This document shows, piece by piece, positions 307-35,928 of a stretch of DNA of 35,938 nt. Position 1 is the stretch's first letter, and each line of letters opens with the position of its first letter. This DNA comes from a virus, in the IMG/VR virus record IMGVR_UViG_3300023179_000281, positions 1-35,938 of that record; one strand, written 5' to 3'. The notes below the pieces were generated by a model. It was not told the origin of the DNA, did not search any database, and was given only the letters and a program-made list of their open reading frames with translations. Made by a program: the position numbers and the translations under genes.

Positions 307-1200
307 ATGAATGATTTGAGGATAACAGATCCAGCATACAAGGCATTTGGTTTAGAGTATGCAAGTGTGTCTCAAAATAAATTATCAGAAGATAAAAGAT
401 TTTTTAATTACATTGTACTAACTCCAGAAGAAAGAATGAAGATGCCTAAGCGTTCTCATTTTACAATGGGTAATATTGTTCATAACGCAGTACAAAAAAT
501 TCTTTGCAAAAAAGAAACATTAAAAGATGTTATCTTTAATAAAGACAAATCATTATTTAAATCTTTAAAAGCAGAAAAACCAATAGATGAAAAAGATAAA
601 GCCAAAAGATATTACATGGCTAAGAATTTTAAATTAACATTAAAACAATTTCAAACAGCACTAGAGAGTCTGCCAAAACAAAATTGGAATTTTGAAACTG
701 AGTATGCAACTTGGATAGATGGAATAGGAACTTACTTTAAAATGTTTATAGATTTAGAGGGAGAGGATTACATTGTAGATTTAAAGAATATATTTGGTTC
801 AGTTATTAAAACTAAAAAAGGTTATTCATATAGTAAGAGAGCTGTACCTAGTGTTCCGTTTCATTCTGATTGTATGCAAATGGCAGCTTATAACTTTGCA
901 ACCGGTGGTAAGAAACCTGTTCTTATTTATGCCAATCATTTTGAACATAAAGTATTTAGTGAAAACAATTGTGATGATTTAAAACCTGAGAACTTAAAAT
1001 ATTATTTAGATGAATTAGTTATGTACCAACAAATATGGGAACAGAAATTAAAGTTAGCTAATGGTAATCCTTATACTTTAGCAAGATTAATTAAACCAGA
1101 TTTCTCAGACATCAGAAAGAAACAAGATTTTTTTTGGAATGATATACCTGAGGAATATATAAATAGATTTTTAAATTATTATAAGAATGACAAACGATAG
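307..1200 (+). CDS. RecB/RecE-type PD-(D/E)XK exonuclease
   Basis: This 297-aa protein carries the ordered motifs of the RecB/Cas4/RecE nuclease superfamily: GNIVHNAV with His59 (residues 55-62), an acidic stretch around Glu130-Glu132, Asp149 in the segment YFKMFID, the core YIVDLKN with Asp158 and Lys160, and the QxxxY motif (Gln191 to Tyr195). These residues would bind metal and cut DNA. The expected role is a 5'-3' exonuclease that makes 3' single-stranded tails for phage recombination. The annealing-protein candidate lies just downstream, which is the classic two-component arrangement. The start ATG at 307 lacks a Shine-Dalgarno sequence and overlaps a repeated 12-nt element, so it may be translated from a short-leader mRNA. 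A second ATG lies four bases downstream but in another frame. I am confident of the nuclease class and less sure that it is strictly an exonuclease. Confidence 0.8.
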   Translation: MNDLRITDPAYKAFGLEYASVSQNKLSEDKRFFNYIVLTPEERMKMPKRSHFTMGNIVHNAVQKILCKKETLKDVIFNKDKSLFKSLKAEKPIDEKDKAKRYYMAKNFKLTLKQFQTALESLPKQNWNFETEYATWIDGIGTYFKMFIDLEGEDYIVDLKNIFGSVIKTKKGYSYSKRAVPSVPFHSDCMQMAAYNFATGGKKPVLIYANHFEHKVFSENNCDDLKPENLKYYLDELVMYQQIWEQKLKLANGNPYTLARLIKPDFSDIRKKQDFFWNDIPEEYINRFLNYYKNDKR

Positions 1201-1273
1201 ATTTGAAATGTTTATTATAGCTATGCTTGCATTAATTGCAGTTGAAACAATAAGACATTTATTTGGGATATGA
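1187..1273 (+). CDS. 28-aa single-span membrane peptide
   Basis: This tiny frame starts at an ATG inside the 3' end of the nuclease gene (14-nt overlap) and stops at a TGA immediately before the annealing-protein region. It encodes MTNDRFEMFIIAMLALIAVE followed by TIRHLFGI: a short polar head, about 15 hydrophobic residues that would span the inner membrane once, and a basic end. The tight overlaps on both sides suggest translational coupling. No family is recognised. Short one-span peptides of this kind also occur at 31735-31975 and 35081-35325 in this genome. Confidence is moderate because 28 codons can be open by chance in AT-rich DNA. Confidence 0.4.
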   Translation: MTNDRFEMFIIAMLALIAVETIRHLFGI

Positions 1274-1299
1274 GTTTAACAAACAAAAAAGGAGAGCAA

Positions 1300-1932
1300 A
1301 TGGAAAACATAAATCTGATAGATGCTATCAAGGAGTTTAGTGAAAATACAAAAGATAGTTTCATTAATATTCAGGGTAGGAAATATCTTAAAGTAGTTGA
1401 TAGACTAAACTTTGTAAGACAGAAGTTTGGTGAGAGACTATGCGTTAAAACAACAACAACATATCCAGATGGTCTGGCAATGTTTCAAACGGAAATCTTT
1501 TTAGATGGGAAGTTAATTGGAACTGGACATTCTAAACAGACAGTAAAGAAAGATAAAGAATTTGAGAAGATAGAATCAGTATCTATTGGTAGAGCTTTAG
1601 GGATAGCAGGATTTGCTGGGTCTGAACTTGCTACCTTTGAAGAGATGAATGATTTTATTAAGACAACACCGAATTTTAATAATGGTTATGTTCAAGCTAA
1701 ATCACAACCAGTTGATGTGGCTAAGGATGAAATCATTACTAAGATACAAGAAGCCGAAAAGTTCTCAACAACTCCTGGCGTATTAGAAAAGAACTTGCAA
1801 CAAATATGGTCGCAATATTCTGAGAAGCTGGGGTTCATGCAAGTTGAGGATCAAGACTTCTATAGTAAGATACTACAAGCTAGAAAAAAAGCAGAGCAAA
1901 CAGTAAGAACAAGGAGTAACAATGGCAGATAA
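1300..1932 (+). CDS. Single-strand annealing protein candidate (Erf/Rad52-like class)
   Basis: I place the start at the ATG at 1300 (210 aa), because ggagag lies at 1291-1296 just upstream; the frame is open from an earlier ATG at 1270 that has no such site. The protein has a compact N-terminal domain (residues 1-110) with the segments INIQGRKYLKVVDRLNFVRQ, TGHSKQTV and IESVSIGRALGIAGF. This pattern is seen in small phage proteins often annotated as ERF/Sak-like recombinases or RAD52-like annealing proteins. The C-terminal 100 residues are helical and probably regulatory or partner-binding. The position between a RecB/RecE-type nuclease and a DUF736-like protein supports a role in annealing single strands during phage recombination or concatemer formation. 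The family call is from memory of sequence patterns, not a search. Confidence 0.55.
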   Translation: MENINLIDAIKEFSENTKDSFINIQGRKYLKVVDRLNFVRQKFGERLCVKTTTTYPDGLAMFQTEIFLDGKLIGTGHSKQTVKKDKEFEKIESVSIGRALGIAGFAGSELATFEEMNDFIKTTPNFNNGYVQAKSQPVDVAKDEIITKIQEAEKFSTTPGVLEKNLQQIWSQYSEKLGFMQVEDQDFYSKILQARKKAEQTVRTRSNNGR

Positions 1933-2140
1933 ATACGACAACACACTTTCGCTTTGGAAAAACGCAAAGCGTAGAGAGGGAAAACAAGACCCTCAATATA
2001 CAGGCAGCGGAATGATTGATGGAAAGAAATGGTCTATCTCTGGTTGGATTAACACAGCTAAGAAGAATGAGAAAGCACCGGATATTTCTATTAAAGTAAA
2101 TCCGTTTAAAGAATCAACAAAAGACAAAATGCCGTTTTAA
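1922..2140 (+). CDS. DUF736-like small protein, possible single-strand DNA-binding role
   Basis: This 72-aa protein starts with MADKYDNTLSLWKNAKRREG and has the segments DPQYTGSGMIDGKKWSISGW and INTAKKNEKAPDISIKVNP. The spacing and wording (YDN..LWKN, Y.G....G..W.I..W, K......SIKV) resemble DUF736, a small beta-rich family. The last residues, KDKMPF, look like the hydrophobic Pro-Phe tail that SSB proteins use to contact partners. The gene overlaps the annealing-protein gene by 11 nt and has aaggagtaaca before its ATG, so it is co-translated with the recombination genes. A role as an SSB-like accessory protein is inference; the DUF736 resemblance is moderate. Confidence 0.6.
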   Translation: MADKYDNTLSLWKNAKRREGKQDPQYTGSGMIDGKKWSISGWINTAKKNEKAPDISIKVNPFKESTKDKMPF

Positions 2141-3311: not shown

Positions 3312-3337
3312 TATAGGGAGTGTTACAGCTCCCTATA
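3312..3337. terminator. Perfect hairpin between convergent operons
   Basis: TATAGGGAG (3312-3320) and CTCCCTATA (3329-3337) form a perfect 9-bp stem with an 8-nt loop. It lies exactly where the rightward early operon (ending about 3308) meets the end of the leftward late block (last stop at 3342). Only a weak T-rich tail follows on either strand. A bidirectional terminator is the natural reading. Confidence 0.65.
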
Positions 3338-4006: not shown

Positions 4007-4657
4007 TTACTCCTTTGTGTTGTAAAATTGACTATCATCATTCTCTGTTCTCCAACCGTCAGTCTCAACGCTTGGATAATCCATATTAGTTTTATAATCT
4101 GGTATATTATCTTTAACAGTAAAATTAGGTAAATTAAATAATATTCTATTGTTTGGCATTAGTGCATAATTTCCTTGCCATTCATCACCCTCAGCTATCT
4201 CCAATATATGATGATGCTTATGTTCCGGTGATATTTCTGAATAGGTTGTATTTAATAAATTAATATCTGGTTGGCAGTAATCTATTGAGAATTCGTAATT
4301 AGCTTTATGCAATTTATTATTTCTATCTAAGAACTTACATTGAGAAGTAGCTAACGCATTGTATTCAACAACGCCTGCATAGTAAGATAGACAATCCCAA
4401 TAAGCTAAATCTTTTAATTGTAAATCCTTAACTTGATTTCTTTTATATCCATCTGCAAAGAAAGCATGAATAGGAAGTCTTGCATAGTTAGCGCCATTAG
4501 GAAGTATAATATTAAATAGAGGTGTGCGACCCTCAAGTGTTGTTATAGAATGGATTAAACAATCCTCTTCTTCTCCTATATGTTTTTCTTTATTATATAG
4601 AAACTCTAATCTGATCTTTGCTTTCCAAACTGGGATGTTGTGGTTTAGAAATGCCAT
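4007..4657 (-). CDS. Conserved phage protein of unknown function (MAFLNHNIP type)
   Basis: I choose the ATG at 4657 (216 aa) because the conserved-looking N-terminus MAFLNHNIPVWKAKIRLEFL starts there and ggag lies upstream; the frame is open 20 codons further. The protein has segments RTPLFNIILPNGANYARLPI, DLAYWDCLSYYAGV, FSIDYCQPD and an HKHHH cluster, followed by LMPNNRILF. I recall similar roughly 200-aa proteins in marine phages, without a known activity. The histidines and cysteines could bind metal. The coding region overlaps the gene at 4593-4796 by 65 nt in another frame. Confidence 0.6.
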   Translation of the reverse strand: MAFLNHNIPVWKAKIRLEFLYNKEKHIGEEEDCLIHSITTLEGRTPLFNIILPNGANYARLPIHAFFADGYKRNQVKDLQLKDLAYWDCLSYYAGVVEYNALATSQCKFLDRNNKLHKANYEFSIDYCQPDINLLNTTYSEISPEHKHHHILEIAEGDEWQGNYALMPNNRILFNLPNFTVKDNIPDYKTNMDYPSVETDGWRTENDDSQFYNTKE

Positions 4658-4796
4658 CGTTATATTCTTTCTCCATACAAATTGTATGCTGACATTTTCT
4701 ATCTGCGTAGATAACAAAAGAATCTGTATTAATAATTTCTATATTACAAGACTTGCAGAATCCAACACTTTGTAATCTAAATTTTTTCTTAGCCAT
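4593..4796 (-). CDS. Small zinc-ribbon-like protein
   Basis: This 67-aa frame begins MAKKKFRLQSVGFCKSCNIE. Cysteines at 14 and 17 (CKSC) and at 34 and 40 (CQHTIC, with a histidine at 36) are placed as in a four-ligand zinc ribbon. Its start directly follows the upstream stop (TAAATG). Its last 65 nt overlap the conserved gene at 4007-4657 in a different frame, so the C-terminal third may be little constrained. A nucleic-acid or protein contact role is usual for such ribbons. The function is not known. Confidence 0.5.
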   Translation of the reverse strand: MAKKKFRLQSVGFCKSCNIEIINTDSFVIYADRKCQHTICMEKEYNDGISKPQHPSLESKDQIRVSI

Positions 4797-17648: not shown

Positions 17649-18053
17649 TTAATTTCTACTTTTGTTTAAATACTTAATTGCATTATTTAATAAGTCAATG
17701 TTATCTTTTAATAAACCTATTCCGGTATTGCAATCACTACATAATAAACCTCTGATTTTATTTGTAGTATGACAATGATCTACCGCAAATGCTCTTAGTT
17801 TTTTTCTGTAATACCCATTATTATCTACTCCGCAAATTGAACACTTGCCATTTTGCTTTGTTAATAATTCATTATAATCTTGTAAAGATATTCCGTATGC
17901 TTTTTTTAATTTACTATTTTTATCTACTTTATAATCGTAAATGTTCATGCACTTTTTACAAACATTTTGTCTTTTATATTTTCCGTTTTTATTAAAGTAA
18001 AATTTATCTAAATTAAAATTAATAGAACATTTTTTACATTCTATTGTTTGCAT
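17649..18053 (-). CDS. Freestanding HNH endonuclease, recombination endonuclease VII type
   Basis: This 134-aa protein shows two zinc-binding cysteine pairs near the N-terminus (C6/C9 and C32/C35), then CSICG (C71/C74), the catalytic AVDHCHTTNKIRGLLCSDCN segment (Asp92, His93, His95, C105, C108, Asn109), and a helical tail. This is the endonuclease VII-like beta-beta-alpha-metal fold. Its ATG overlaps the stop of the 688-aa fibre gene (TGATG) and it interrupts a row of tail genes, which is typical of a freestanding homing endonuclease. A Holliday-junction resolving role is the alternative. Confidence 0.8.
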   Translation of the reverse strand: MQTIECKKCSINFNLDKFYFNKNGKYKRQNVCKKCMNIYDYKVDKNSKLKKAYGISLQDYNELLTKQNGKCSICGVDNNGYYRKKLRAFAVDHCHTTNKIRGLLCSDCNTGIGLLKDNIDLLNNAIKYLNKSRN

Positions 18054-20119
18054 CAGAGAGCTATCGCCATAGCAATAGCAAAACCAGCTCCTGCTTTGTT
18101 GTCTATTTGAGTTTGTATAGCCGAAGTAACACCAGAAACATAACCTAATTCTGTACTTGTTACAGATGATACAGCTACTTTTCCAGAAGCATTTGAAGCT
18201 AAAGCTCTACTAGCCGTAAGATCAGATGAAGTTATAGTAGTAGCTCCGCCTGTAATCGTTGCTTGTTTGCTATTTATTTGAGTTTGGATTGCACTTGTAA
18301 CGCCATCCAAATAACCAAATTCAGTATTATCTACTGTACCTGTTCCAATCTTAGTTGCAGCAATTGAATTAACTGCAATATTAATTGTACCAGATGTTGT
18401 TACTGGAGAATTAGTAATTGTAAATTCTGAAGATCCAGCATCAGCTAAACCTACAGAAGTTACTGTTCCACCAGAACTAGGATAAACTTGTGTATATGTA
18501 ATTGAACTAGAACCAAGTGTAGCACTAGTATCAGTAGTACATAACCATAATGTATCTTGTTGAGATGAACCTTCTGAAACTAAAATTAATTGTCCAGCTA
18601 ATTCTGTTATTGTATCAAATTCTGTATCTCTTGAAGCAGCACCTGATGCTACAACAGTATATAAACCATTTTGAGATGCAGTAGATTGATTTTTTAATAA
18701 TACTCTATTTCCTGTTACTAAAGTAACACCATCAATTGTATCACCGTTTTCTAAACCAGATGCAATTGTAACGTTTGCAGTAGAAGCAACTCTAGCAACA
18801 ACTCTTGTTCTAAGCCCAGCAACTAATGTATCAACATAGTTTTTAGTAGCAGCATCTGAAGTAGATGAAGGATCACCTAATCCTGTTACTGTACCACCTG
18901 AAATAGAAACGTTATTAGCATTTTGAGTTGCAATAGTTCCAAGACCAAGTGTAGTTCTTTGTGCTGATGCGTCAGCATCATCTAATAATGCTTTACCAGC
19001 AGTTGTTAAATCAAATGTTGAAGCTGTTCCAGAACCTGTAAATTGAATACCTTTATCAGCAGCAGATGTTAAACCAGCAATTGCTTGAAGTTCAGCATCG
19101 TATGCTTGTACGTTTGTACCAATAGCTAATCCTAAATTAGTTCTAGCAGTAGATGCAGAAGATACATCAGATAAATTATTTGAAGCAGTTAATTTTGAAT
19201 TAATTTGAGTTTGTATTGAAGATGTAACTCCATCTAAATATCCAAATTCTGTATTTGAAACTGAACCATCATGTATTTTAGTAGCATTAATTGCAGCACT
19301 AGCATTAATGTCTGCGTTAACAATAGTTCCATCAGCAATTTTACCAGTTGTTATTGCATCGTCAGCAATCTTAGCTGTTGTTATATTTAAATCAGCTATC
19401 TTTGCGGTAGTAATATTTGAATCTGCTATTTTAGCAGTCGTTACATTTGAATCTAATATTTTAGATGTAGTAACTGCATCACTTGCAATTTTTGCAGCAG
19501 TAATATTACTATCTGCTATCTTAGCTGTTGTGATATTGGAGTCTGCAATTTTAGCAGTTGTTATATTTGAGTCTGCTATTTTGGCAGTTGTAATATTTGC
19601 ATCAGTAATTTTTACAGTAGTAACAGCATTAGAAGCAAGTTTAGCTGTAGTAATACTACCATCAGCAATATTGCTTGTACCAATAACTGAATCTGGAATT
19701 GATGAATTTGTTTTAGACAAAGCACCAACATAAATTGTTAAAGTTTCATTTGATAATGAACCACTATCCCAAGATACAGTAACAGTTGTATTTGTTGAAA
19801 ATGTTGAAGCACTAATTGATCCATAGATAGTTCCAGTAGAAGAACCTACTGCTTTAATTCTACGACCAACATGATAAAAACTTGTTACATCTACACTAGA
19901 TATTGTAAATGAAGTTGCTGATGCGTAAGTAATAGTAAAACCATTATCTCCATCACCATAAATAACCCATTGAGAATCATTATACCATTCTCTAATTTCA
20001 GCACCTAAACCTCTAAAACAGTTATTAATATTAGAAGGCAACATACCTTCTGCTGTATTAATACTTCCTATTGTAGTGTTATTTGCTGCTGTTGTGCTAT
20101 AATCTTTTATTCCTGCCAT
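18053..20119 (-). CDS. Main tail fibre with decapeptide repeat shaft
   Basis: This 688-aa protein has an N-terminal domain (1-150; MAGIKDYSTTAANNTTIGSI, WYNDSQWVIYGDGDNGFTIT) that should attach to the tail. A shaft of about 12 decapeptide repeats follows (156-275, consensus ITTAKIADSN). Three copies of a GYLDGVTS-IQTQINSK motif lie near residues 290, 600 and 670, typical of phage fibre shaft segments. A middle module (about 400-540) has TRVVARVASTANVTIASGLE. A C-terminal hydrophobic end (AGFAIAMAIAL) closes it. It starts behind gggagattaATG. It is likely the longest host-recognition fibre. Confidence 0.75.
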   Translation of the reverse strand: MAGIKDYSTTAANNTTIGSINTAEGMLPSNINNCFRGLGAEIREWYNDSQWVIYGDGDNGFTITYASATSFTISSVDVTSFYHVGRRIKAVGSSTGTIYGSISASTFSTNTTVTVSWDSGSLSNETLTIYVGALSKTNSSIPDSVIGTSNIADGSITTAKLASNAVTTVKITDANITTAKIADSNITTAKIADSNITTAKIADSNITAAKIASDAVTTSKILDSNVTTAKIADSNITTAKIADLNITTAKIADDAITTGKIADGTIVNADINASAAINATKIHDGSVSNTEFGYLDGVTSSIQTQINSKLTASNNLSDVSSASTARTNLGLAIGTNVQAYDAELQAIAGLTSAADKGIQFTGSGTASTFDLTTAGKALLDDADASAQRTTLGLGTIATQNANNVSISGGTVTGLGDPSSTSDAATKNYVDTLVAGLRTRVVARVASTANVTIASGLENGDTIDGVTLVTGNRVLLKNQSTASQNGLYTVVASGAASRDTEFDTITELAGQLILVSEGSSQQDTLWLCTTDTSATLGSSSITYTQVYPSSGGTVTSVGLADAGSSEFTITNSPVTTSGTINIAVNSIAATKIGTGTVDNTEFGYLDGVTSAIQTQINSKQATITGGATTITSSDLTASRALASNASGKVAVSSVTSTELGYVSGVTSAIQTQIDNKAGAGFAIAMAIAL
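19295..19654 (-). repeat. Twelve 30-nt tandem repeats coding decapeptides
   Basis: Twelve consecutive units encode variants of ITTAKIADSN, several identical at protein level and close at DNA level. Both strands are open because of the repeat, which produces a false 141-aa frame on the + strand (19308-19733). Copy number is expected to vary between relatives through recombination, changing fibre length. Confidence 0.8.
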
Positions 20120-23834: not shown

Positions 23835-24779
23835 TTATGATGTTGTTAAGTCAGCAACAATTCCTGAACCAGCTTCGTTTCTAGATTCAAGAGTGTATTC
23901 AACTAACAAGAATTGCTTCATAGCATCACCAGTTTTTGCTAAATCTTCTAAAGAGAAATCTCTTAAGAAAGCTACAGCAAATAAATCTGGAGTGATTACG
24001 AAAGCATCTCTAGCTCTTTGGAATCTGTTTGGTGTTACTTGTAAAGCACCGAAATCAGATTCGTACACATCAACCGCAGCAACTAATCTTTTGTTTTCAG
24101 CTGGGTCAAATCTTGTAGATCCACCTGTGAAACCAGATAGTTTTTGCTTGTTGAAAGAACCAACCATAACCATTGATGGATCACCACCGTTATCCCATAC
24201 TGATTTGATAACTGATTTTAGTTGATCTTCTGTGAAAGCTCTTTGAGTTCCATCAGTTCTAGCATTTGTTCCAGATGTTCCTGGAGCAGATCCGCCAGAT
24301 CCAGCACTTTGGTTAGACTTTAACCAAGAACCTAATCCTGATAGTTCTCTAGCTGTTGAGTCATCCCCAGCAACTTGAGCATTGTTGTCGCAAAGCGATG
24401 TTTCCATATCTCTTTTAAGCTCTTTTGATGCTTTAGAGATTTGGTATGCAAGCTCAGAATTTCTTCCAGCTTTGTTAACCGCTTCTAACGTTCCGGAAAT
24501 GATAACAGATTTTGTAGCAATCTGAGTAACGTTTCCTCTTCTTGTTGTGCTAGATGGAGCAGAGAATGATACTTCATCTCCTTCAATCTGAGCATTAGAT
24601 GCACTAGCGGCTGCTAATGAATCTAGTTGCCATTCATGGTTAACAGCAGTCGCTTTAGTTTTAGCGATGCTTGACATGAAAGGCGTATCAGTTGGAGATA
24701 TATTATAGATTATATCTGTAAGATCTTCTCTAAGTCCAACTGCATCGTACTTACTATATGTGCCTGATACTTGAGCCAT
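23835..24779 (-). CDS. Major capsid protein, SU10-like (DUF5309-type HK97 fold)
   Basis: This 314-aa protein begins MAQVSGTYSKYDAVGLREDL, then TDIIYNISPTDTPFMSSIAK, HEWQLDSLAAAS, TTRRGNVTQIATKSVIISG, KELKRDMETSLC, a central SVWDNGGDPSMVMVGSFNKQ and a C-terminal LRDFSLEDLAKTGDAMKQFL. The N-terminal ISPTDTPF...K and the late KTGDxxKxxxxVEYTLE wording are hallmarks of the SU10-type major capsid family (HK97 fold). It builds the head lattice. The start has aaggaaaat before ATG. It lies right after the scaffold gene and is followed by a strong hairpin. Confidence 0.85.
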   Translation of the reverse strand: MAQVSGTYSKYDAVGLREDLTDIIYNISPTDTPFMSSIAKTKATAVNHEWQLDSLAAASASNAQIEGDEVSFSAPSSTTRRGNVTQIATKSVIISGTLEAVNKAGRNSELAYQISKASKELKRDMETSLCDNNAQVAGDDSTARELSGLGSWLKSNQSAGSGGSAPGTSGTNARTDGTQRAFTEDQLKSVIKSVWDNGGDPSMVMVGSFNKQKLSGFTGGSTRFDPAENKRLVAAVDVYESDFGALQVTPNRFQRARDAFVITPDLFAVAFLRDFSLEDLAKTGDAMKQFLLVEYTLESRNEAGSGIVADLTTS

Positions 24780-25934: not shown

Positions 25935-26228
25935 TTAGAATTTTTGACCCTCAATGGATTTTCTGAAATCTTCTAATTGTCTCTTAGCAAGTTTTCCAGT
26001 TTCCATTATCTCAATAAAGTGTTGTTCCACTTTGTTAACGATTTGATATGCTAGCCATAATTTTTCTCTAGCATCTTGTTCATTAACGCCTGTATTTAAC
26101 AGACTTTGAGAGTACAATTTTTTTAAATTCTCAATCGCTTCTACAAAAATTGGATTTGATAATCCTAATCTTGCTTTTTCTGATCTACTAACTTCCGATT
26201 GGAGTTTCGTTTGATCCGGTTGTTGCAT
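25935..26228 (-). CDS. Small helical protein between portal and scaffold
   Basis: This 97-aa protein begins MQQPDQTKLQSEVSRSEKAR and has GLSNPIFVEAIENLKKLYSQ, NEQDAREKLWLAYQIVNKVE and a final METGKLAKRQLEDF. I recognise this pattern (NP.FVEA...L, DAREKLWL....V..V..H....METGKLA..QL) from short proteins next to portal genes in podoviruses of environmental origin. It may bind the portal or scaffold during assembly. It overlaps the portal gene by 41 nt in another frame. Preceded by aggaatta. Confidence 0.6.
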   Translation of the reverse strand: MQQPDQTKLQSEVSRSEKARLGLSNPIFVEAIENLKKLYSQSLLNTGVNEQDAREKLWLAYQIVNKVEQHFIEIMETGKLAKRQLEDFRKSIEGQKF

Positions 26229-28356
26229 TTAATTCCTGTATTTGTTGTCCAAATTCTTGCGTAGCTTTTTGAGCTGCCATTAAATTTTTAGAAGCGTTGT
26301 TTAATCTTGTCTTAGTTAAGTCAGCTTCTGCTTTTAATTTAGCAGCATCAATTTGTGTATTATACTTTAACTCTAATTCTTTCATTTTTGTTTGAAAGTC
26401 AAGTTGCATTTTAGAGTTATTCATTTGTAATTCTTTAAACTGTAATTCTAAATCAGCTTGTTTTCGTTTGTTTTCACTATCTATTCTAGTAAATTCAATC
26501 TTTTCAATAGGCGTTAAAGCTGGTGGTTGAGGTGGTTGAACATATTGCATACCCACATCTGGGTTAACAAAGTAATTCTCTGTATTTTTAAGACCAGCAT
26601 TTTCAATCATTTTAGATAACGTATTATAAATATTCTTTAACGTTACCATTGGATATTCTTTTCCACCTTGTAAATTAAACGCTTGTAATTGTTTTTCAAG
26701 AATACTGTTTAGTATTACTAATTGTTGTTCTTTAGAACCAGAACCTAATCCAACTACAATATTAATATTATATTTATCTTTCCATTCAGTTGGTCGCACA
26801 GGTACGAAAACATTATTCAATTGCACCATTCTTTCAACTTCTTGGTATTTAACTGTTAATTCAAAAATCTTTTCAAATAATTCTTTAACGCCAGTCTCAG
26901 CAAATATTCTAGCAATTAACTCCATACGCATTTGCGTTTGCGTCATTAGAGTATTAATTCCTGTTGCAGTTTTATTTAAACTGTCAGCGTCTAATCCTTG
27001 CGCATATCTTGTAACACCAGTTCTAGTTTCTCTGACTGTGTCTAAGTATTCAAGTAATGGAAATGCTTGAGCAGAAATTGTTTGGTTCTGCATTGGCAAC
27101 ATAACTTGAGAAGGTGGTTGTTTTGTTCTAACAACACCGCCTGGTCTAGCTGTTAGTAAATCATCAAGATTTACCATTCCATCCATAATCGCAATACGAT
27201 TATTATTTGTTAGATACATATTGTCTAACAACTGTCTTAAAACTGTAGATTTAATTAATTGAATATCTTGTACTAATTCAGAAACCGATCTGCCATAAAA
27301 TCTGTGTGGCATTGGGATTGGAGTTAATGAACAGAAAGGAACAGAGTCTACTTCTACATTTTCTAAAATATCATTTGCACTATCACCTACAACTGTAATC
27401 TTTCTTAATTCTGCAAGACCATCACCATCAAAATCTAATCTGACATAACATTCAAAAACATCTATTTGGTCAGTAGATTTATCTGGAGATGAACGAAAAG
27501 GGTATTCGTCAATATCAGAAAATCTAGTTAGCTTTTCTGAATTAAAAACAACTTCATCTGAATGAGGTAATGAAGAAATTATTTCTGCATCATAACCCAT
27601 TTCTAATAATTGAGTTCTAGTCTTTGTTGTTCGGTGTGCTACAAAGTTTGCGTCTGCAATTGTCTTAGCATCTCTTTGTATTAAAAATTCTTCTGGTGGT
27701 ACGTTTTCAATTTTAACTCTACCTTCGTTTGAATATCTTTTAATTTTAATATGATGAAGTTTTGGTCTTGGTAAATTTAAAACTTGACCCTGTTGACTTG
27801 CAACTTGTTCTAAAATTTTTATTTGTTGGTCTTGCGATTCATCTTCTTCTTCTTCATGTTCTAAAACTTCAACATCATCTTGATTGATAATAGATTGGTA
27901 AGAATCTTCATTTAAATTTTCGTAAGTTTCATGTTCAGCTTTTTTTGTATCTTCCCAATAAACTTTAACGATACCATTTTTTTCTAATAGCGCATCTTTG
28001 AACCAATTGTATAAAATTGTAAATCCTGGATTATCTTTATTAAAAATATAATTAATATAATTTGTTGCCTGTTCAGCAAGTTGAACATCTTCAGCTTTTA
28101 CTGGTTCGCAAATAACTGTTCTGTCAGATGCTGTAAAAATTCTAAGAAGATTTGGTAATATTGTTTCAATGGTATCTGCAACATCAGTTGATACTACTTG
28201 TGAACGACCATCTATTTCTGTTCCAAGTTTTTCACCTAAATAATATTCAATAGATTTTTTTCTTTGCTCAGATAACTGTCCACCAAGATAACCTAATGCT
28301 CCATTAATCTCAGCATTAAGAATAGCTTTTATTTCTTCGTTTGATAATTTTGGCAT
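26188..28356 (-). CDS. Portal protein (P22/SU10-type)
   Basis: This 722-aa protein has an N-terminal helical region with DVADTIETILPNLLRIFTAS (around 60-80), a Glu-rich acidic loop (around 160-172), a beta region with EGRVKIENVPPEEFLIQRDA, a stem/clip region with SVPFCSLTPIPMPHRFYGRS and VSELVQDIQLIKSTVLRQLL, PGGVVRTKQPPSQVMLPM, the helix DADSLNKTATGINTLMTQTQ, and a long Gln/Lys-rich C-terminal coiled coil (about 630-722) that would form the barrel. These features and the length fit P22/SU10-type portals, the dodecameric ring through which DNA enters and leaves. It lies just after TerL, as usual. Confidence 0.8.
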   Translation of the reverse strand: MPKLSNEEIKAILNAEINGALGYLGGQLSEQRKKSIEYYLGEKLGTEIDGRSQVVSTDVADTIETILPNLLRIFTASDRTVICEPVKAEDVQLAEQATNYINYIFNKDNPGFTILYNWFKDALLEKNGIVKVYWEDTKKAEHETYENLNEDSYQSIINQDDVEVLEHEEEEDESQDQQIKILEQVASQQGQVLNLPRPKLHHIKIKRYSNEGRVKIENVPPEEFLIQRDAKTIADANFVAHRTTKTRTQLLEMGYDAEIISSLPHSDEVVFNSEKLTRFSDIDEYPFRSSPDKSTDQIDVFECYVRLDFDGDGLAELRKITVVGDSANDILENVEVDSVPFCSLTPIPMPHRFYGRSVSELVQDIQLIKSTVLRQLLDNMYLTNNNRIAIMDGMVNLDDLLTARPGGVVRTKQPPSQVMLPMQNQTISAQAFPLLEYLDTVRETRTGVTRYAQGLDADSLNKTATGINTLMTQTQMRMELIARIFAETGVKELFEKIFELTVKYQEVERMVQLNNVFVPVRPTEWKDKYNINIVVGLGSGSKEQQLVILNSILEKQLQAFNLQGGKEYPMVTLKNIYNTLSKMIENAGLKNTENYFVNPDVGMQYVQPPQPPALTPIEKIEFTRIDSENKRKQADLELQFKELQMNNSKMQLDFQTKMKELELKYNTQIDAAKLKAEADLTKTRLNNASKNLMAAQKATQEFGQQIQELNATTGSNETPIGS

Positions 28357-28357
28357 A

Positions 28358-29626
28358 TTAAATAATATAATTAGTATTTACTTCTATCTTTTTTTTCCAA
28401 TTTGTCATCTCAATTCCATAACCTACAATACCTGTTCTAAAAGCATCAGCGGCATGGCTTGCGAAATTATGTATGGGTCTATTCCTAAAACATTGGTTTA
28501 TATCATCCCATTTTTTTTGGTAGGATTTTAAACATTCCATACCATAATGGCATTTGTTTTTGTCAAACCAACAGTTAGGTAAAGACTTTCTTACTGCTTC
28601 AATCCCATCTTCTAAAGATAGTTTCGGCGCAACCTCAAATGCTATACCTAATTCTAAGGCAGTTTCCAACCTTGATTTACCATAAGCACCTAATTCCCTA
28701 ACCTTAATATCATGTGGTGCAATATGTCTTGAATAGTTATAACCTTTGCTTTCAATGATATTAGCGTAATGGTCTAATCCTTCACCAGCATTTTCGTAAA
28801 AATCTATTAATCTTATTTTACCCTTATGTCGCTGTGCAAACCAAATCACAGTAGAATCGTTCATTCCTAAATCCCACCATGTTTCAACTGGTATTTCTTT
28901 ATCGTATAAATTATCTACAACCCTACCATTCTTTTCTGCATCTTCAATTAAAGTTCCATAGTAAGAACCTGTTATTGCAGCTTGGAAAGAACATTCAAAT
29001 TCTTGTTCAAACAAATCATCAGACATGATTGATTTGGCAGCTTTTAATTCATCATCGTCTAGTATCTTTGTTTCAGATGCTTTATGAATTGATGAATACC
29101 AACCCTCTGTCTTTTGGGCGTATTGGTATAATTCAAAAAAATAATTTTTACCTTTTGGTGTTCCAATAAATACACACCAACCTTTCCTATCTGCCAAAGC
29201 TGGTCTTATGATTTCAGGAAATAGATTTGGAGAAATGCTTTGCGTTTCATCTAAAACACAACCATCTAAAAATATACCTCTTAACGCTTGGTCATTCTCA
29301 GCGCCTAGAATTGTAATTCTTGCGCCATTTGGAAAGTCAGCTCTTAATTCTGACTCATTAAACTTAACACCAGGAATCTTACCGGCAAAAGTCTTAATGT
29401 AATCCCAAGCCGTTGCCTTACCTTGTTTAAAGGTAGGTGATATAAATGCGTACCTAGAATTTGGTTTCTTAGAATACATTGCATCTCTAATCATGTGATT
29501 AATACACATCACCGTCTTACCAGCTCTTCGGTGCAAGACCAGAACTGAGAATCGGTGCTTAGAGATATTTTCATGCAAAATTTTTTGCAATGCTCTTGGC
29601 TTATATGGAATCTCAAATACTGGCAT
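28358..29626 (-). CDS. terL: Terminase large subunit (TerL)
   Basis: This 422-aa protein shows Walker A (HRRAGKT, 32-38), Walker B with catalytic Glu (GCVLDE, 122-127), the coupling motif IGTPKG (154-159) and the RNase H-like nuclease core: Asp252 and Asp257 (WWDLGMNDS), Asp306 (APHDIK) and Asp394 (HAADAFR). It pumps DNA into the procapsid using ATP and cuts the concatemer. Length is slightly short but both domains are complete. The start at 29626 has a G-run (from a CCCCCC tract on the + strand) about 14 nt upstream rather than a classic ribosome-binding site. Confidence 0.9.
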   Translation of the reverse strand: MPVFEIPYKPRALQKILHENISKHRFSVLVLHRRAGKTVMCINHMIRDAMYSKKPNSRYAFISPTFKQGKATAWDYIKTFAGKIPGVKFNESELRADFPNGARITILGAENDQALRGIFLDGCVLDETQSISPNLFPEIIRPALADRKGWCVFIGTPKGKNYFFELYQYAQKTEGWYSSIHKASETKILDDDELKAAKSIMSDDLFEQEFECSFQAAITGSYYGTLIEDAEKNGRVVDNLYDKEIPVETWWDLGMNDSTVIWFAQRHKGKIRLIDFYENAGEGLDHYANIIESKGYNYSRHIAPHDIKVRELGAYGKSRLETALELGIAFEVAPKLSLEDGIEAVRKSLPNCWFDKNKCHYGMECLKSYQKKWDDINQCFRNRPIHNFASHAADAFRTGIVGYGIEMTNWKKKIEVNTNYII

Positions 29627-30733: not shown

Positions 30734-31237
30734 ATGACTACAAAAAGCAACAACGACAGACAACAAGTTGATTACAATAAACCTGTTGGAATTAAAGACG
30801 GTTCAATTTATTTTTTAAATTATGTTTTTAATTATGACGATGGTTTTAGAGGAGCAACAGGAACTGTATTAGATCCTATTGCTTCTAATTATATTGAAAG
30901 CATTACAACTGAAGATTGGCTAGAATATTCTAGGGATCTTTGGAAGTCAGCTGTAGAAACAAATTCAACTGTAGCTGGTTTAGAAGATTATGCTAAAATA
31001 ATACAAGAAGATTCAGAAATCTCAGGTTTATTATATCCTGGACATGACAACTCATATTCTGAATTGTACGATGAAGCAAAAAAACATTTTGATTATGATG
31101 TTGAAACATTCAATTGCTCAGGTGGTGGTCGTTGCTTTAATTTAGAGTTATTAAATTCTTTTGATAAAGTTATTGACCAAGACTTAATTGATTTAATTAA
31201 GTCTTATGAATTAAAAAACGAAACAAAAGCAGCTTAA
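30734..31237 (+). CDS. Acidic early protein of unknown function
   Basis: I start this gene at the ATG at 30734 (167 aa), which follows cggagataaaaca; the frame is open from 30668, but that start lies inside the promoter. The protein is strongly acidic (about 31 Asp/Glu against 15 Lys/Arg) with aromatic-rich stretches: SIYFLNYVFNYDDGFRGATG, ITTEDWLEYSRDLWKSAVET and YDVETFNCSGGGRCFNLELL with a GGGRCF motif. It is the first gene behind the strongest promoter seen, so it is likely an early host-takeover protein. A DNA-mimic anti-defence role is a possibility from charge and position, not from homology. I do not recognise a family. Confidence 0.6.
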   Translation: MTTKSNNDRQQVDYNKPVGIKDGSIYFLNYVFNYDDGFRGATGTVLDPIASNYIESITTEDWLEYSRDLWKSAVETNSTVAGLEDYAKIIQEDSEISGLLYPGHDNSYSELYDEAKKHFDYDVETFNCSGGGRCFNLELLNSFDKVIDQDLIDLIKSYELKNETKAA

Positions 31238-31260
31238 CAATCAAACGGAGATAAAAACAA

Positions 31261-31521
31261 ATGACTAAAACAAATCTAAAATTTATGTCAGACTTTGATA
31301 TAGAGGTTGCTAATAAATCAATCTCTAAAACTGAAGCTGCCATATTATATAATGCTATATCGTTAGCTGGCTTACATGATTTAAACAAAATCAATACCGC
31401 TCTGTTATTTAATAAATTAAATAATGGTAAGAGCTTAACCGGTGCTGATTATGTTAAGTACAGCATTAAAGACATAAACCACTTACAAGATAAACTTGTA
31501 AGAATAATGGAGTCTGAATAA
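31261..31521 (+). CDS. 86-aa early protein, unknown function
   Basis: This protein begins MTKTNLKFMSDFDIEVANKS and is helical: ISKTEAAILYNAISLAGLHD, then LNKINTALLFNKLNNGKSLT and a C-terminal DINHLQDKLVRIMESE. The start follows acggagataaaaacaa, almost the same leader as the previous gene, so both are probably translated at high level from the promoter at 30671. It overlaps the next start by one base (TAATG). No family or catalytic motif is recognised. Confidence 0.55.
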   Translation: MTKTNLKFMSDFDIEVANKSISKTEAAILYNAISLAGLHDLNKINTALLFNKLNNGKSLTGADYVKYSIKDINHLQDKLVRIMESE

Positions 31522-32168: not shown

Positions 32169-32597
32169 TTAGTTGCTCTTAGAGATTAAACTTTGATAAC
32201 CTACCCTGTTCACCAGACTACATGCATCATAAAGAGCTAGTCTATATCTATATTTCAACTGATTATAAGTTAAATCTAAATACATTCTATTAAGTTCTTT
32301 AATGCTTATTCTGTCTGGAAAGTTCCTAAGAGATAATAGTTCCCTAGTATTTTTATCTAGTTTTAACATAGTGAATATAACTAATTCATAAATAGATAAT
32401 TGCTTAGGTGTTGCTTTGAGACGCTTGTTTTGCTTGTCATGATATCCCCAATCCTTAGAGTCATAATAGACTGTTCCTATTATTTTAAACATAGATGGAG
32501 TTCTATTGTTTTTAACTCTTGGTAAGAGTCGTTCAACAAATGAAGCTATCGCCAGATAATTATCAAATTCATTAATTGTTATTGGAGTATTAATCAT
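32169..32597 (-). CDS. HTH-like protein, possible transcription regulator
   Basis: This 142-aa protein has an N-terminal part (MINTPITINEFDNYLAIASF), then an RRVKNN-type basic segment and, from about residue 68, a helical region like sigma region 4 or a LuxR-type HTH: SIYELVIFTMLKLDKNTREL, LSLRNFPDRISIKELNRMYL and LTYNQLKYRYRLALYDACSL. This order (leucine-rich helix, turn, then a recognition-type helix with YNQLKYRYR) suggests DNA binding. It is the last gene of the leftward block and lies directly beyond the repeat-rich non-coding region at 32598-33010, whose palindromes it might bind. The family is not named. Confidence 0.45.
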   Translation of the reverse strand: MINTPITINEFDNYLAIASFVERLLPRVKNNRTPSMFKIIGTVYYDSKDWGYHDKQNKRLKATPKQLSIYELVIFTMLKLDKNTRELLSLRNFPDRISIKELNRMYLDLTYNQLKYRYRLALYDACSLVNRVGYQSLISKSN

Positions 32598-32754
32598 TTA
32601 AAAACGGCGCAGAGATTCCCTTGTGTTATCATTACCAAGCACTACCATATATTGTTATAAAGATAAATGGGTCAGTCAGTCCACTCCCCCCTATTAAAAT
32701 TAATAATAATCTCAGGAGTGCTAGCTATGAATAAGTTATGTTGGCTTATACTTA

Positions 32755-32834
32755 TATAAGCATATAAGCATATATAAGCATATATACTTAAATATGATTA
32801 TAAGATTATATATAGGTATATATATATAGGTATA
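32755..32834. repeat. Short iterons (tataagcata x3, tataggtata x2)
   Basis: Three tataagcata copies at 8- and 10-bp spacing are followed by two tataggtata copies 14 bp apart. They form an almost pure A/T tract interrupted by regularly placed G/C pairs, as in initiator-binding iterons or an origin-unwinding element. Confidence 0.5.
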
Positions 32835-32839
32835 TATAT

Positions 32840-32878
32840 GGTACAAATTTTATACCGACTAGGTATAAATTTTATACC
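32840..32878. repeat. Twin palindromic sites 22 bp apart
   Basis: Site 2 (32862-32878) reads ggtataaattttatacc: 8-bp arms around a central T, a perfect palindrome. Site 1 (32840-32856) is the same sequence with one mismatch (C for T in the left arm). Their centres are 22 bp apart, two helical turns, so two dimers would sit on the same face of the DNA. Both lie inside a repeated 15-nt segment ending ccgac. Confidence 0.65.
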
Positions 32879-33010
32879 GACCCCCAACCTAAAACTTAGA
32901 GACACCAATTTGAATTAAAAGCATTATTTCAGCATTTAATATGTTAAACTACCGACTTTGTAGAATTAACCAAGACACCCCTTTAAAACGCTTCCTAATA
33001 GGTTTAAACG

Positions 33011-33418
33011 CTATTCCTTAAGTGATTTGGTATTGCTTATGCTAACAACATTATCAATGTTATTCTTTTTAACATTCCAACGTAGCTTCATCTTAGTCTT
33101 TAAAGATTTTCTATAGTTGTTTTGCTTGTTTAAAATATTCTGTCTGTTCTTAGAACTTAAATAATAAACTGAGGTTTCATTAGAACTAGGTTTATGCCTT
33201 ACAATCAAACCTAAAATTTGTAATCTGTCTAAGTGCTTAATCAAAGTCATCTTAGATTTAATACCGGTTCTGTCTTGCAAGTATTGCAATGATACTCTGA
33301 TACCTCTTGGCGCTTTCTCAAATGATTTTAAAATAACATAAATTATTTTCTCATGGGAATTAAGAACAAATGAATCTAAAATATCTTTTGTTATTTTTTC
33401 AAACTTAATTGTTGTCAT
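33011..33418 (-). CDS. Winged-helix replication-type protein
   Basis: This 135-aa protein has an N-terminal winged helix similar to phage replication initiators (HTH_36-like): IYVILKSFEKAPRGIRVSLQ, YLQDRTGIKSKMTLIKHLDR and LQILGLIVRHKPSSNETSVY form helix, turn-recognition helix and wing. The C-terminal half (residues 90-135) is lysine/asparagine-rich and probably flexible DNA-contacting or partner-binding tail. Its ATG overlaps the stop of the DnaA-domain gene by 4 nt (ATGA). The gene lies next to the iteron region, so a role in origin recognition or loading is likely but inferred. Confidence 0.6.
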   Translation of the reverse strand: MTTIKFEKITKDILDSFVLNSHEKIIYVILKSFEKAPRGIRVSLQYLQDRTGIKSKMTLIKHLDRLQILGLIVRHKPSSNETSVYYLSSKNRQNILNKQNNYRKSLKTKMKLRWNVKKNNIDNVVSISNTKSLKE

Positions 33419-33930
33419 TTTACAATTTTAAAATCAGATTCCAAGTCCAACTTTAGTTTATTAAAGCTATTCCATATTTCAAAGTAAGGAAACCAAAGTC
33501 CATTCTTTTGGGATTTGCAACTGATATGATGAATGATTGTAGTGTGGTCTCTCCCAGCTAATATCTCCCCAATGTTAGTTAAACTATATGGCGTTAATTC
33601 TTTTAATAAATTTATAGCAACCGATCTTGCAATAACTAAATGCCTATCCCTTTTGTCAGATAGTAATTGCTCCCTATCAATACCAAAATGATTTGCAGTT
33701 CTATAAATAATAGCATCTACAATTGGACTTACCTTATGGATCTTAACATTTTTCTTTCTTGAAAAATCCATAGATTTATAATTGCCAATATGCTGCAACG
33801 CCAAACGATAACCTGTTTTAAATCCGCTTCTAAAATAAATGTTATCTATTGCTGTGGGTTTTTCAAACATACCTGTTCGCATTTTACTTTTTATTTCTTG
33901 CTTCCAAATTCTTGGTTGTGTTAGTCGCAT
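33415..33930 (-). CDS. DnaA domain IV-like DNA-binding protein
   Basis: Residues 69-140 match the DNA-binding domain IV of the bacterial initiator DnaA: VDAIIYRTANHFGIDREQLL, then SDKRDRHLVIARSVAINLLK and the signature GRDHTTIIHH (126-135). This is the element that reads DnaA boxes. The protein (171 aa) has no AAA+ ATPase domain; residues 1-68 are a basic region of unknown fold. It probably recognises phage or host origin sequences and may recruit or replace host DnaA. It is coupled by ATGA to the winged-helix gene and sits a few hundred bases from the repeat region at 32598-33010. Confidence 0.85.
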   Translation of the reverse strand: MRLTQPRIWKQEIKSKMRTGMFEKPTAIDNIYFRSGFKTGYRLALQHIGNYKSMDFSRKKNVKIHKVSPIVDAIIYRTANHFGIDREQLLSDKRDRHLVIARSVAINLLKELTPYSLTNIGEILAGRDHTTIIHHISCKSQKNGLWFPYFEIWNSFNKLKLDLESDFKIVK

Positions 33931-33933
33931 TGT

Positions 33934-34491
33934 TTATATCCATTCTATTGTTGGTTGACCGGAGTAATTAACATCATAAACGAACCACCCAAAAGCCATA
34001 AGTCCACCGGCTAAACTATCGCTTCCAGGTTTTTTAAAAGCTACCCTCTTGGTAAAGATTAAAACTGTCTGTAATTTTTTCTGGTCAAATATTAATTTCT
34101 TACGTCTGATACCCTCAAGATAAGTTATCTTGGAAAGCATAACAACTTTATGTCTTGCAAGTTTTAAACTATGTACCGTAAATTCTGTTGCCAATTTAAA
34201 AGGTGGGTTTGTAATAATGTTATCAACCTTTTCAGTTGTCTCTAAAAAATTAACTCCTGTCTTTCCATAACCTCTGTCAAATAAATCTGATGAGATAACT
34301 TCATAACCATTACTAATTAAAACTTTAGACATAGCACCGTCTCCGCAAGCAGGTTCTAAAATGTTGCCAGTAAATTTTTGTCTATCTAATAGAGCTTGTG
34401 TGGCTTCACTTGGCGTTGGATAAAAGTCATCCTTTTCTCTGTCATCATTAACATTAAAACCAACGTATCTAAGAGCTGCTTCTTTTTTCAT
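33934..34491 (-). CDS. DNA N6-adenine methyltransferase-like protein
   Basis: The best start is the ATG at 34491 (185 aa), which overlaps the stop of the zinc-ribbon gene by 4 nt (ATGA); the frame is open to 34572, but those residues overlap the other gene. The protein has FYPTPSEATQALL, motif I ILEPACGDGAMSK (SAM binding, 45-57), the acidic SSDLFDRG at strand 2 and the catalytic NPPF (95-98, in NIITNPPFKL). This is the D-x/N-PP-F class of adenine-N6 methyltransferases. It lacks a clear target-recognition domain. It may protect phage DNA from host restriction. Confidence 0.8.
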   Translation of the reverse strand: MKKEAALRYVGFNVNDDREKDDFYPTPSEATQALLDRQKFTGNILEPACGDGAMSKVLISNGYEVISSDLFDRGYGKTGVNFLETTEKVDNIITNPPFKLATEFTVHSLKLARHKVVMLSKITYLEGIRRKKLIFDQKKLQTVLIFTKRVAFKKPGSDSLAGGLMAFGWFVYDVNYSGQPTIEWI

Positions 34492-34658
34492 TTCTTTTTT
34501 TTCTTCATGTACAAGTCTTGGTTCTTGCGCCTTTGTGAACGCATAATAACCTGATGCAAACATCTCACACAATAATCTTTGCCATCAAATTCTACCTCTG
34601 CATGAAACACACACTCAGAGCATAATGGTAAATCACTTGGGATTGGCTTTTCAATCAT
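34488..34658 (-). CDS. 56-aa zinc-ribbon protein, overlaps the methyltransferase
   Basis: The frame starts at the ATG at 34658, inside the stop of the upstream gene (ATGA), and ends at TGA 34490-34488, overlapping the methyltransferase start (ATGA again). The product begins MIEKPIPSDLPLCSECVFHA, continues EVEFDGKDYCVRCLHQVIMR and ends in a basic lysine tail. Cys13/Cys16 and Cys30/Cys33 form a compact zinc ribbon. The double ATGA coupling argues that it is real and fixes the methyltransferase start. Function unknown. Confidence 0.6.
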   Translation of the reverse strand: MIEKPIPSDLPLCSECVFHAEVEFDGKDYCVRCLHQVIMRSQRRKNQDLYMKKKKK

Positions 34659-35579: not shown

Positions 35580-35928
35580 TGAATATCATCTCTATTGGAA
35601 ATAATGATTGCCAATCAACCGCATAAACCTTTGGTCTATCTTTATAACCAAAGTCAGTTAGGTATTCTCCATTGCCAATCACATCGGAAGAATTAATATA
35701 ACCTATAATGCTAAACTTTGGACATCTGTCTAATACTAATACATAAATTTCATTTGCTGAACTGTCTTGTCTTATGATTAAGAAGTTGTCTGGCTTTGGT
35801 TCTTGAGTTCTAACTTGTACTCTTCTATTCTTATAATATAAATCTGCACCCCTAAAATTATTTACATGATAATTGAAATGTACTTTCAAACATTTTGCTA
35901 CAGCTAATTCTCCAAGTGTCCCTGACAT
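35572..35928 (-). CDS. 3' part of a split gene: possible nuclease-like DNA-binding protein
   Basis: From the ATG at 35928 this encodes 118 aa, MSGTLGELAVAKCLKVHFNY then NFRGADLYYKNRRVQVRTQE and KPDNFLIIRQDSSANEIYVL, ending in YAVDWQSLFPIEMIFNE. The frame is open upstream to the window edge (SDS before the Met), so the gene probably begins beyond the window. The pattern GELAVAK, GADL, VQVRTQ and YVLVLD resembles restriction-endonuclease-like phage proteins (helix with Glu, then Asp, then a V-x-V-R/K strand), though the second acidic residue is Gln here. It most likely joins to the partial gene at 1-132. Confidence 0.6.
   Translation of the reverse strand: MSGTLGELAVAKCLKVHFNYHVNNFRGADLYYKNRRVQVRTQEPKPDNFLIIRQDSSANEIYVLVLDRCPKFSIIGYINSSDVIGNGEYLTDFGYKDRPKVYAVDWQSLFPIEMIFNE

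Follow-up and report, generated by a model that had tools for sequence, protein, structure and literature searches.

A putative replication module in a short-tailed phage genome

We analysed a 35,938-bp virus record from IMG/VR (hereafter the window), and found a compact locus consisting of two overlapping genes, an AT-rich non-coding region of 413 bp that carries repeats (32598-33010), and a conserved gene on its far side. The first gene (33415-33930, minus strand) encodes a 171-aa protein that carries domain IV of DnaA and is called the DnaA-like protein here. The second gene (33011-33418, minus strand) encodes a 135-aa winged-helix (WH) protein. The conserved gene beyond the non-coding region (32169-32597, minus strand) encodes 142 aa, is 82-96% identical among close relatives, and gave no confident family match.

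Two further observations concern the flanks of this locus. Just before the 142-aa gene, at 32604-32626, nearly all relatives carry the motif ACACAAGGGAA followed by GCGCC. This motif resembles a leader or a start-site element; its frequency was not above chance, and we rejected it as a repeated regulatory motif. A search against Rfam returned no match. On the other side, a methyltransferase-like gene (33934-34572, minus strand; phrog_799, 8.9e-57) lies just upstream of the DnaA-like gene. It was not detected in several relatives and is apparently optional.

The window encodes a short-tailed phage, with genes for the capsid (23835-24779), the portal (26188-28356), and the large terminase (28358-29626). 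The ends of the window are joined with a 1-bp overlap in four relatives (L003-L006), and the window appears to be an effectively complete genome with arbitrarily placed ends. Among named phages, the relatives of the DnaA-like gene are mostly HTVC010P-type pelagiphages, which rank with the most abundant marine viruses. SAR11 is a natural guess for the host of the window phage. The window and the HTVC010P-type phages have the O-like, DnaA-like and nuclease gene types in common, with their order rearranged, and the large terminase of the window is partially similar to that of Skadi-1.

Elsewhere in the genome, the gene at 4007-4717 (minus strand) matches a PHROG family labelled 'ferredoxin' in the auxiliary metabolic category (phrog_3704, 5.6e-50), and is conserved in two relatives (L022 and L023). 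A long imperfect 30-bp tandem array was also found at 19331-19663, within a tail fibre-like gene (18053-20119).

A DnaA domain IV-only protein coupled to a winged-helix protein

The original prediction described a DnaA DNA-binding domain without an AAA+ domain, ATGA-coupled to a winged-helix protein, and each of these elements was borne out. PF08299 (Bac_DnaA_C) matched the DnaA-like protein at residues 71-136 with 74.4 bits (cut-off 31.5), and this was the only PF08299 match in the whole record. The Pfam search gave no match to the AAA+ ATPase domain III in the 171 residues. The DNA-binding domain spans approximately residues 71-167. The AlphaFold2 (AF2) model has a mean pLDDT of 80, with values above 90 across most of this domain, and superimposes on 1j1v, the structure of E. 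coli DnaA domain IV in complex with a DnaA box, with a TM-score of 0.89 (normalised by target length) and an rmsd of 1.4 A over 94 columns. For the N-terminal part (residues 1-68), whose structure prediction had been suggested as a check, the model predicts a single long helix at residues 27-59, ahead of domain IV.

We aligned the protein to E. coli DnaA and inspected the base-contact positions of domain IV (PMC5043019). The residues at positions 399, 432-435 and 439 are identical, and changes were found at positions 423 (P to T) and 438 (L to I). Since the box-contact residues are mostly kept, the DnaA-like protein would be expected to bind the canonical box, TTATnCACA. A pattern scan revealed no homologues in bacterial genomes. 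Matches in a plasmid database were rejected, as the annotated ones are chromosomal-type dnaA genes.

The stop codon of the DnaA-like gene and the start codon of the WH gene overlap in a shared ATGA. In one relative (L006, 6517-7219), about 700 bp are inserted between the two genes, and the overlap is broken there.

The WH protein matched PHROG initiator families (phrog_270, 1e-7; phrog_18020, 'O-like', 2e-6), and its AF2 model has a winged helix-turn-helix (wHTH) fold, with a pLDDT of 65 overall and 84-88 over residues 41-70. The Pfam family HTH_36 scored 15.4 bits on the window protein alone, which is under the cut-off. A fold search with the model returned the generic wHTH fold, with CRP, LexA and plasmid initiators tied at a Z-score of about 8-9. 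Because of this tie, the plasmid initiators 4pql and 4pt7 were rejected as specific structural relatives. In alignments with HTVC034P gp09 and its Skadi-1 homologue, the WH protein covers their first half and then stops in a basic tail. It thus resembles an O-type initiator of which the DNA-binding half is left, with no counterpart of the C-terminal half of O, which binds the helicase loader.

Palindromic iterons beside the least stable DNA of the genome

Iterons in AT-rich non-coding DNA had been predicted for this region, and we identified repeat units of 22, 14 and 10 bp there. The 22-bp units form a direct repeat (32840-32881; 95% matches) made up of two iterons GGTAYAAATTTTATACCGAC (unit starts 32840 and 32862), which are candidate sites for the WH protein. 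Each iteron is an odd-centred palindrome, reading GGTATAAAATTTATACC on the minus strand. The sole other match in the 36 kb has three mismatches. A possible extra half-site TACCGACT (repeat family D3) was found at 32950-32957; it may be due to chance, and is also present in L002, L004 and L005.

An AT-rich array at 32753-32839, a candidate DNA unwinding element, directly adjoins the iterons. It contains 10-bp units TATAAGCATA at 32753-32786 and 14-bp units TATATATAGGTATA at 32807-32839. We calculated duplex stability from nearest-neighbour stacking energies, and found that the 100-bp segment of lowest stability in the whole genome (32755-32854) touches the iterons, and that the corresponding 60-bp segment (32780-32839) lies within the array. 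Five relative loci were tested (L004, L012, L015, L022, and L024), and the equivalent segment has the lowest stability in each of them. In lambda and related phages, two iterons with an adjacent AT-rich tract constitute the minimal unwindable DNA (PMC7466680).

Iteron alleles follow the winged-helix protein

We compared the window with 22 close relative loci (19 distinct sequences), and found two alternative alleles at the iteron position. The window, L002, L004, L005 and L024 carry type A, and type B reads GTCCAAAATTTGGAC or GTTCAAAATTTGAAC, with changes that are symmetrical in both half-sites. The AT-rich array is conserved across both iteron types, and is disturbed in some relatives (L007 and L010).

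Two alleles of the WH protein go with the two iteron alleles across the 22 loci and the window. Their differences lie in the wing and at the beginning of the predicted recognition helix, where one allele reads SKMTLIKHL and the other S[RK]GTIIKYL. Alleles of the DnaA-like protein vary independently of the iterons. For example, L024 and L008 carry iterons of type A and type B, respectively, and their DnaA-like proteins are 84% identical whereas their WH proteins are only 59% identical. Conversely, L008 and L006 both carry type B, with WH proteins 98% identical and DnaA-like proteins 70% identical. Because the iteron alleles track the WH protein and not the DnaA-like protein, the WH protein is the likely iteron binder, as judged from sequence comparison. 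This pattern fits a specificity cassette of WH protein and iterons; the co-segregation could also stem from linkage alone, as the WH gene adjoins the iterons.

Initiators and DnaA-like proteins of related phages

HTVC010P, HTVC034P, HTVC035P, HTVC204P and Skadi-1 each encode one O-like initiator and one DnaA domain IV-only protein (5/5). The O-like relative in HTVC010P-type phages has about 230 aa, is annotated 'putative transcriptional regulator', and matched the same kind of families as the WH protein; HTVC034P gp09 scores above the HTH_36 cut-off. All eight records of at least 33.9 kb with an O-like gene also carry one DnaA domain IV-only gene, one copy of which contains stop codons. In the O-like phage L160 (record G003, 30909-31340), the DnaA-like gene is interrupted by three stop codons. 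The gene may be dispensable in this phage, or the contig may contain errors.

We gathered 80 genes related to the O-like gene of HTVC034P and analysed 41 non-redundant complete ones for repeats. In 35 of the 41 genes, the best repeat with a spacing of 20-24 bp was located at nt 285-345, just past the winged helix; synonymous-codon shuffles, which served as the null, averaged 13.1 such genes and never exceeded 19. The regional repeat score was 14.5, compared with 11.4 +/- 0.16 in the shuffles. Individually, 24 genes reached p<0.05, all at nt 295-334, and HTVC010P-type initiator genes often contain 21-23-bp repeats. Among the named phages, HTVC034P (p=0.030), HTVC035P (p=0.007) and Skadi-1 (p=0.020) were significant, HTVC204P was marginal (p=0.076), and HTVC010P was not significant alone (p=0.34). 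Lambda O, the control, gave p=0.002 with a repeat at nt 348, which is the annotated iteron 1. Palindromy was rejected as a general trait of the HTVC010P-type repeats, since it was not above background; it is clear in the window clade.

These repeats bear on whether the WH protein is instead a transcriptional regulator, with the palindromes as operators for the downstream gene at 32169-32597 and the AT-rich array as promoter-flanking DNA. Repressors typically have palindromic operators beside their wHTH gene, the region forms the 5' side of the downstream gene, and the annotation of the HTVC010P-type homologues agrees with such a role. However, the iterons lie about 240 bp upstream of that gene, promoter-like matches are no commoner than in shuffles, and the WH protein matched families of initiators and not of repressors. 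In addition, the HTVC010P-type repeats sit within the initiator gene, an arrangement known from lambda O, and the least stable DNA of the window is located in this region. We therefore consider a purely regulatory role unlikely, and favour an initiator acting at an origin.

A second phage group also combines the two gene types. In an uncultivated IMG/VR group (L030-L047), a DnaA domain IV-only gene lies directly before an HTH_36 initiator gene (35-44 bits), and the two are ATGA-coupled in L031 and L041. We found no direct iterons in the genes tested from this group. As it recurs in a second phage group, this pairing of protein types is not a peculiarity of a single genome. The initiator of this group gave no match in the named phage collection.

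DnaA boxes and GC skew

The original prediction placed both proteins on the iterons. Co-segregation of the alleles supports this for the WH protein. For the DnaA-like protein it is not supported, given that its alleles are independent of the iterons, that its contact residues predict TTATnCACA, and that boxes are neither enriched nor clustered. TTWTNCACA occurs at two sites in the window, compared with 7.3-7.5 expected from shuffles, and no cluster was found. Across 1.8 Mb of fetched loci, no group of at least three such boxes within 300 bp was detected. DnaA boxes were thus rejected as the binding site at the proposed origin. Beside the array, a weak DnaA-box-like site TTATTCATA (32726-32734, minus strand) has one mismatch to TTATNCACA, and may be a chance occurrence in AT-rich DNA. 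At the corresponding place, single perfect boxes are found in L024 (TTATCCACA) and L006 (TTATGCACA), and the site is degenerate in the window and in other relatives.

These data raise the question of whether the DnaA-like protein targets the host, where an ATPase-less domain IV would occupy the DnaA boxes of oriC, stop host initiation, and free the replisome. The identical contact residues, from which canonical box binding would be expected, are in line with this role, as are the low number and unclustered state of boxes in the phage and the independence of the DnaA-like alleles from the phage iterons. However, the shortage of boxes is also observed in HTVC028P, which gave no DnaA-like match, and we accordingly rejected the shortage as a sign of avoidance. 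Moreover, tight coupling to the initiator gene in two phage groups points to a shared task at the phage origin. On balance, we regard host targeting as possible but rather unlikely.

The DnaA-like protein might also recognise the array units TATAWGCWTATA or TATATATAGG with a shifted specificity, stabilising the melted state. The array, like the DnaA-like gene, is common to all relatives, and exact copies of TATAWGCWTATA in the window are confined to it. But the DHTT recognition motif predicts sites containing CACA, which the array units do not contain; the disturbance of the array in L007 and L010 and the absence of the units from the six pelagiphage genomes scanned also argue against it. Recognition of the array thus seems very unlikely.

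GC-skew analysis had been proposed as a way of locating the origin. The cumulative GC skew has its minimum at 35922 and its maximum at 3322, neither of which is at the proposed origin. Because both extremes coincide with gene-strand switches, the skew is uninformative and does not refute the origin. As it follows the gene strand, we discarded it as an origin test.

Replication and recombination genes

As predicted, no polymerase, primase or helicase was found among the window ORFs scanned with PHROG and Pfam, a set that omits some small ORFs. DnaB_C, DNA_pol_A and IstB/DnaC gave no match in the window or in ten relatives, and the window thus gave no sign of a P-type loader gene in the IstB/DnaC and DnaB_C searches. 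The joined ends in four relatives rule out truncation as the reason for the absence of these enzymes. Together with the iterons, the lowest-stability segment and the O-like wHTH protein, this absence supports the proposed phage origin beside its initiator genes, from which replication would proceed by the host replisome.

The window also encodes a set of recombination proteins that was overlooked in the original prediction, at 307-2140 (plus strand) and 17649-18053 (minus strand). It comprises a nuclease, a candidate annealing protein (assigned by gene position), an SSB-family protein (phrog_18154), and an endonuclease VII (phrog_2633). This suggests a phage that borrows its replisome and brings its own recombination tools.

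Proposed mechanism and relation to known systems

Taken together, the module is probably a replication origin of the lambda O/ori kind with its initiators, in which the DnaA-like protein is a conserved partner and likely a second origin-side factor. Binding, melting and loading of the host replisome are inferences from what we computed, namely the domains, the iterons, the lowest-stability segment, the co-segregation of alleles, the recurrence in other phages and the absence of the tested enzymes, and the role assigned to the DnaA-like protein is the most inferential of all. The WH protein, as a dimer, would bind both palindromic iterons and help to open the adjacent AT-rich array, and loading of the host helicase, primase and polymerase III would then follow. 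The DnaA-like partner would be made from the same transcript; most likely, it would help to recruit host factors while docked on the opened region or on sites of the DnaA type. Its target may be the phage origin, reached via weak or atypical sites, or alternatively the host origin. Operon coupling favours the former, and the contact residues and the boxes fit the latter equally well.

The module resembles lambda O/ori in its O-type wHTH protein, its tandem iterons with dyad symmetry (here two 22-bp palindromes) spaced about 20-24 bp apart, the adjoining AT-rich tract, and synthesis by the host replisome. In contrast to lambda, whose iterons lie inside the O gene, the window has two iterons outside the initiator gene. 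Its initiator has only 135 aa without the C-terminal half of O, no P gene was identified, and a DnaA domain IV-only protein stands alongside. Thus, the module would work like lambda O/ori but fails two of its defining features (in-gene iterons; C-terminal half and P-type loader), which makes it a variant.

The missing C-terminal half and P-like gene leave the loading step without a named actor. One conceivable solution is a divided initiator, whose DnaA domain IV-only partner took over from the lost helicase-contacting half, so that, with two iterons at the origin, the host helicase would be loaded jointly by two ATPase-less DNA-binding modules. We consider this arrangement decidedly unlikely.

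The HTVC010P-type phages differ from the window in carrying the O-like and DnaA domain IV-only genes about 4 kb apart on opposite strands, and not as one ATGA-coupled pair. Their initiator of about 230 aa contains in-gene repeats, whereas the window has a truncated initiator and non-coding iterons. The L030-L047 group shares with the window a DnaA domain IV-only gene directly upstream of, and overlapping, the initiator gene, but its initiator has about 285 aa, the N-terminus of its DnaA-like protein is different, and its tested genes gave no direct iterons. Bacterial DnaA/oriC is similar in the domain IV fold and in most DnaA-box contact residues, and differs in having the AAA+ domain and a DnaA-box cluster, neither of which was found in the phage.

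A DnaA-like gene, reported in all HTVC010P-related genomes (PMC6811365), and the reliance on host polymerases, as in Skadi, which has no phage DNA polymerase and uses that of the host (PMC10504331), have already been published. In the literature searched, outside of which lies the main HTVC010P-type genome paper (10.1099/mgen.0.000596), we found no published report of iterons or an iteron origin in HTVC010P-type phages, nor of the coupling of DnaA domain IV-only and initiator genes. The window provides a precise candidate origin and initiator that can be tested, with natural allele pairs already at hand as controls of specificity. A test of function also comes within reach for a DnaA-derived protein that has so far been annotated simply as 'DNA replication initiation'.
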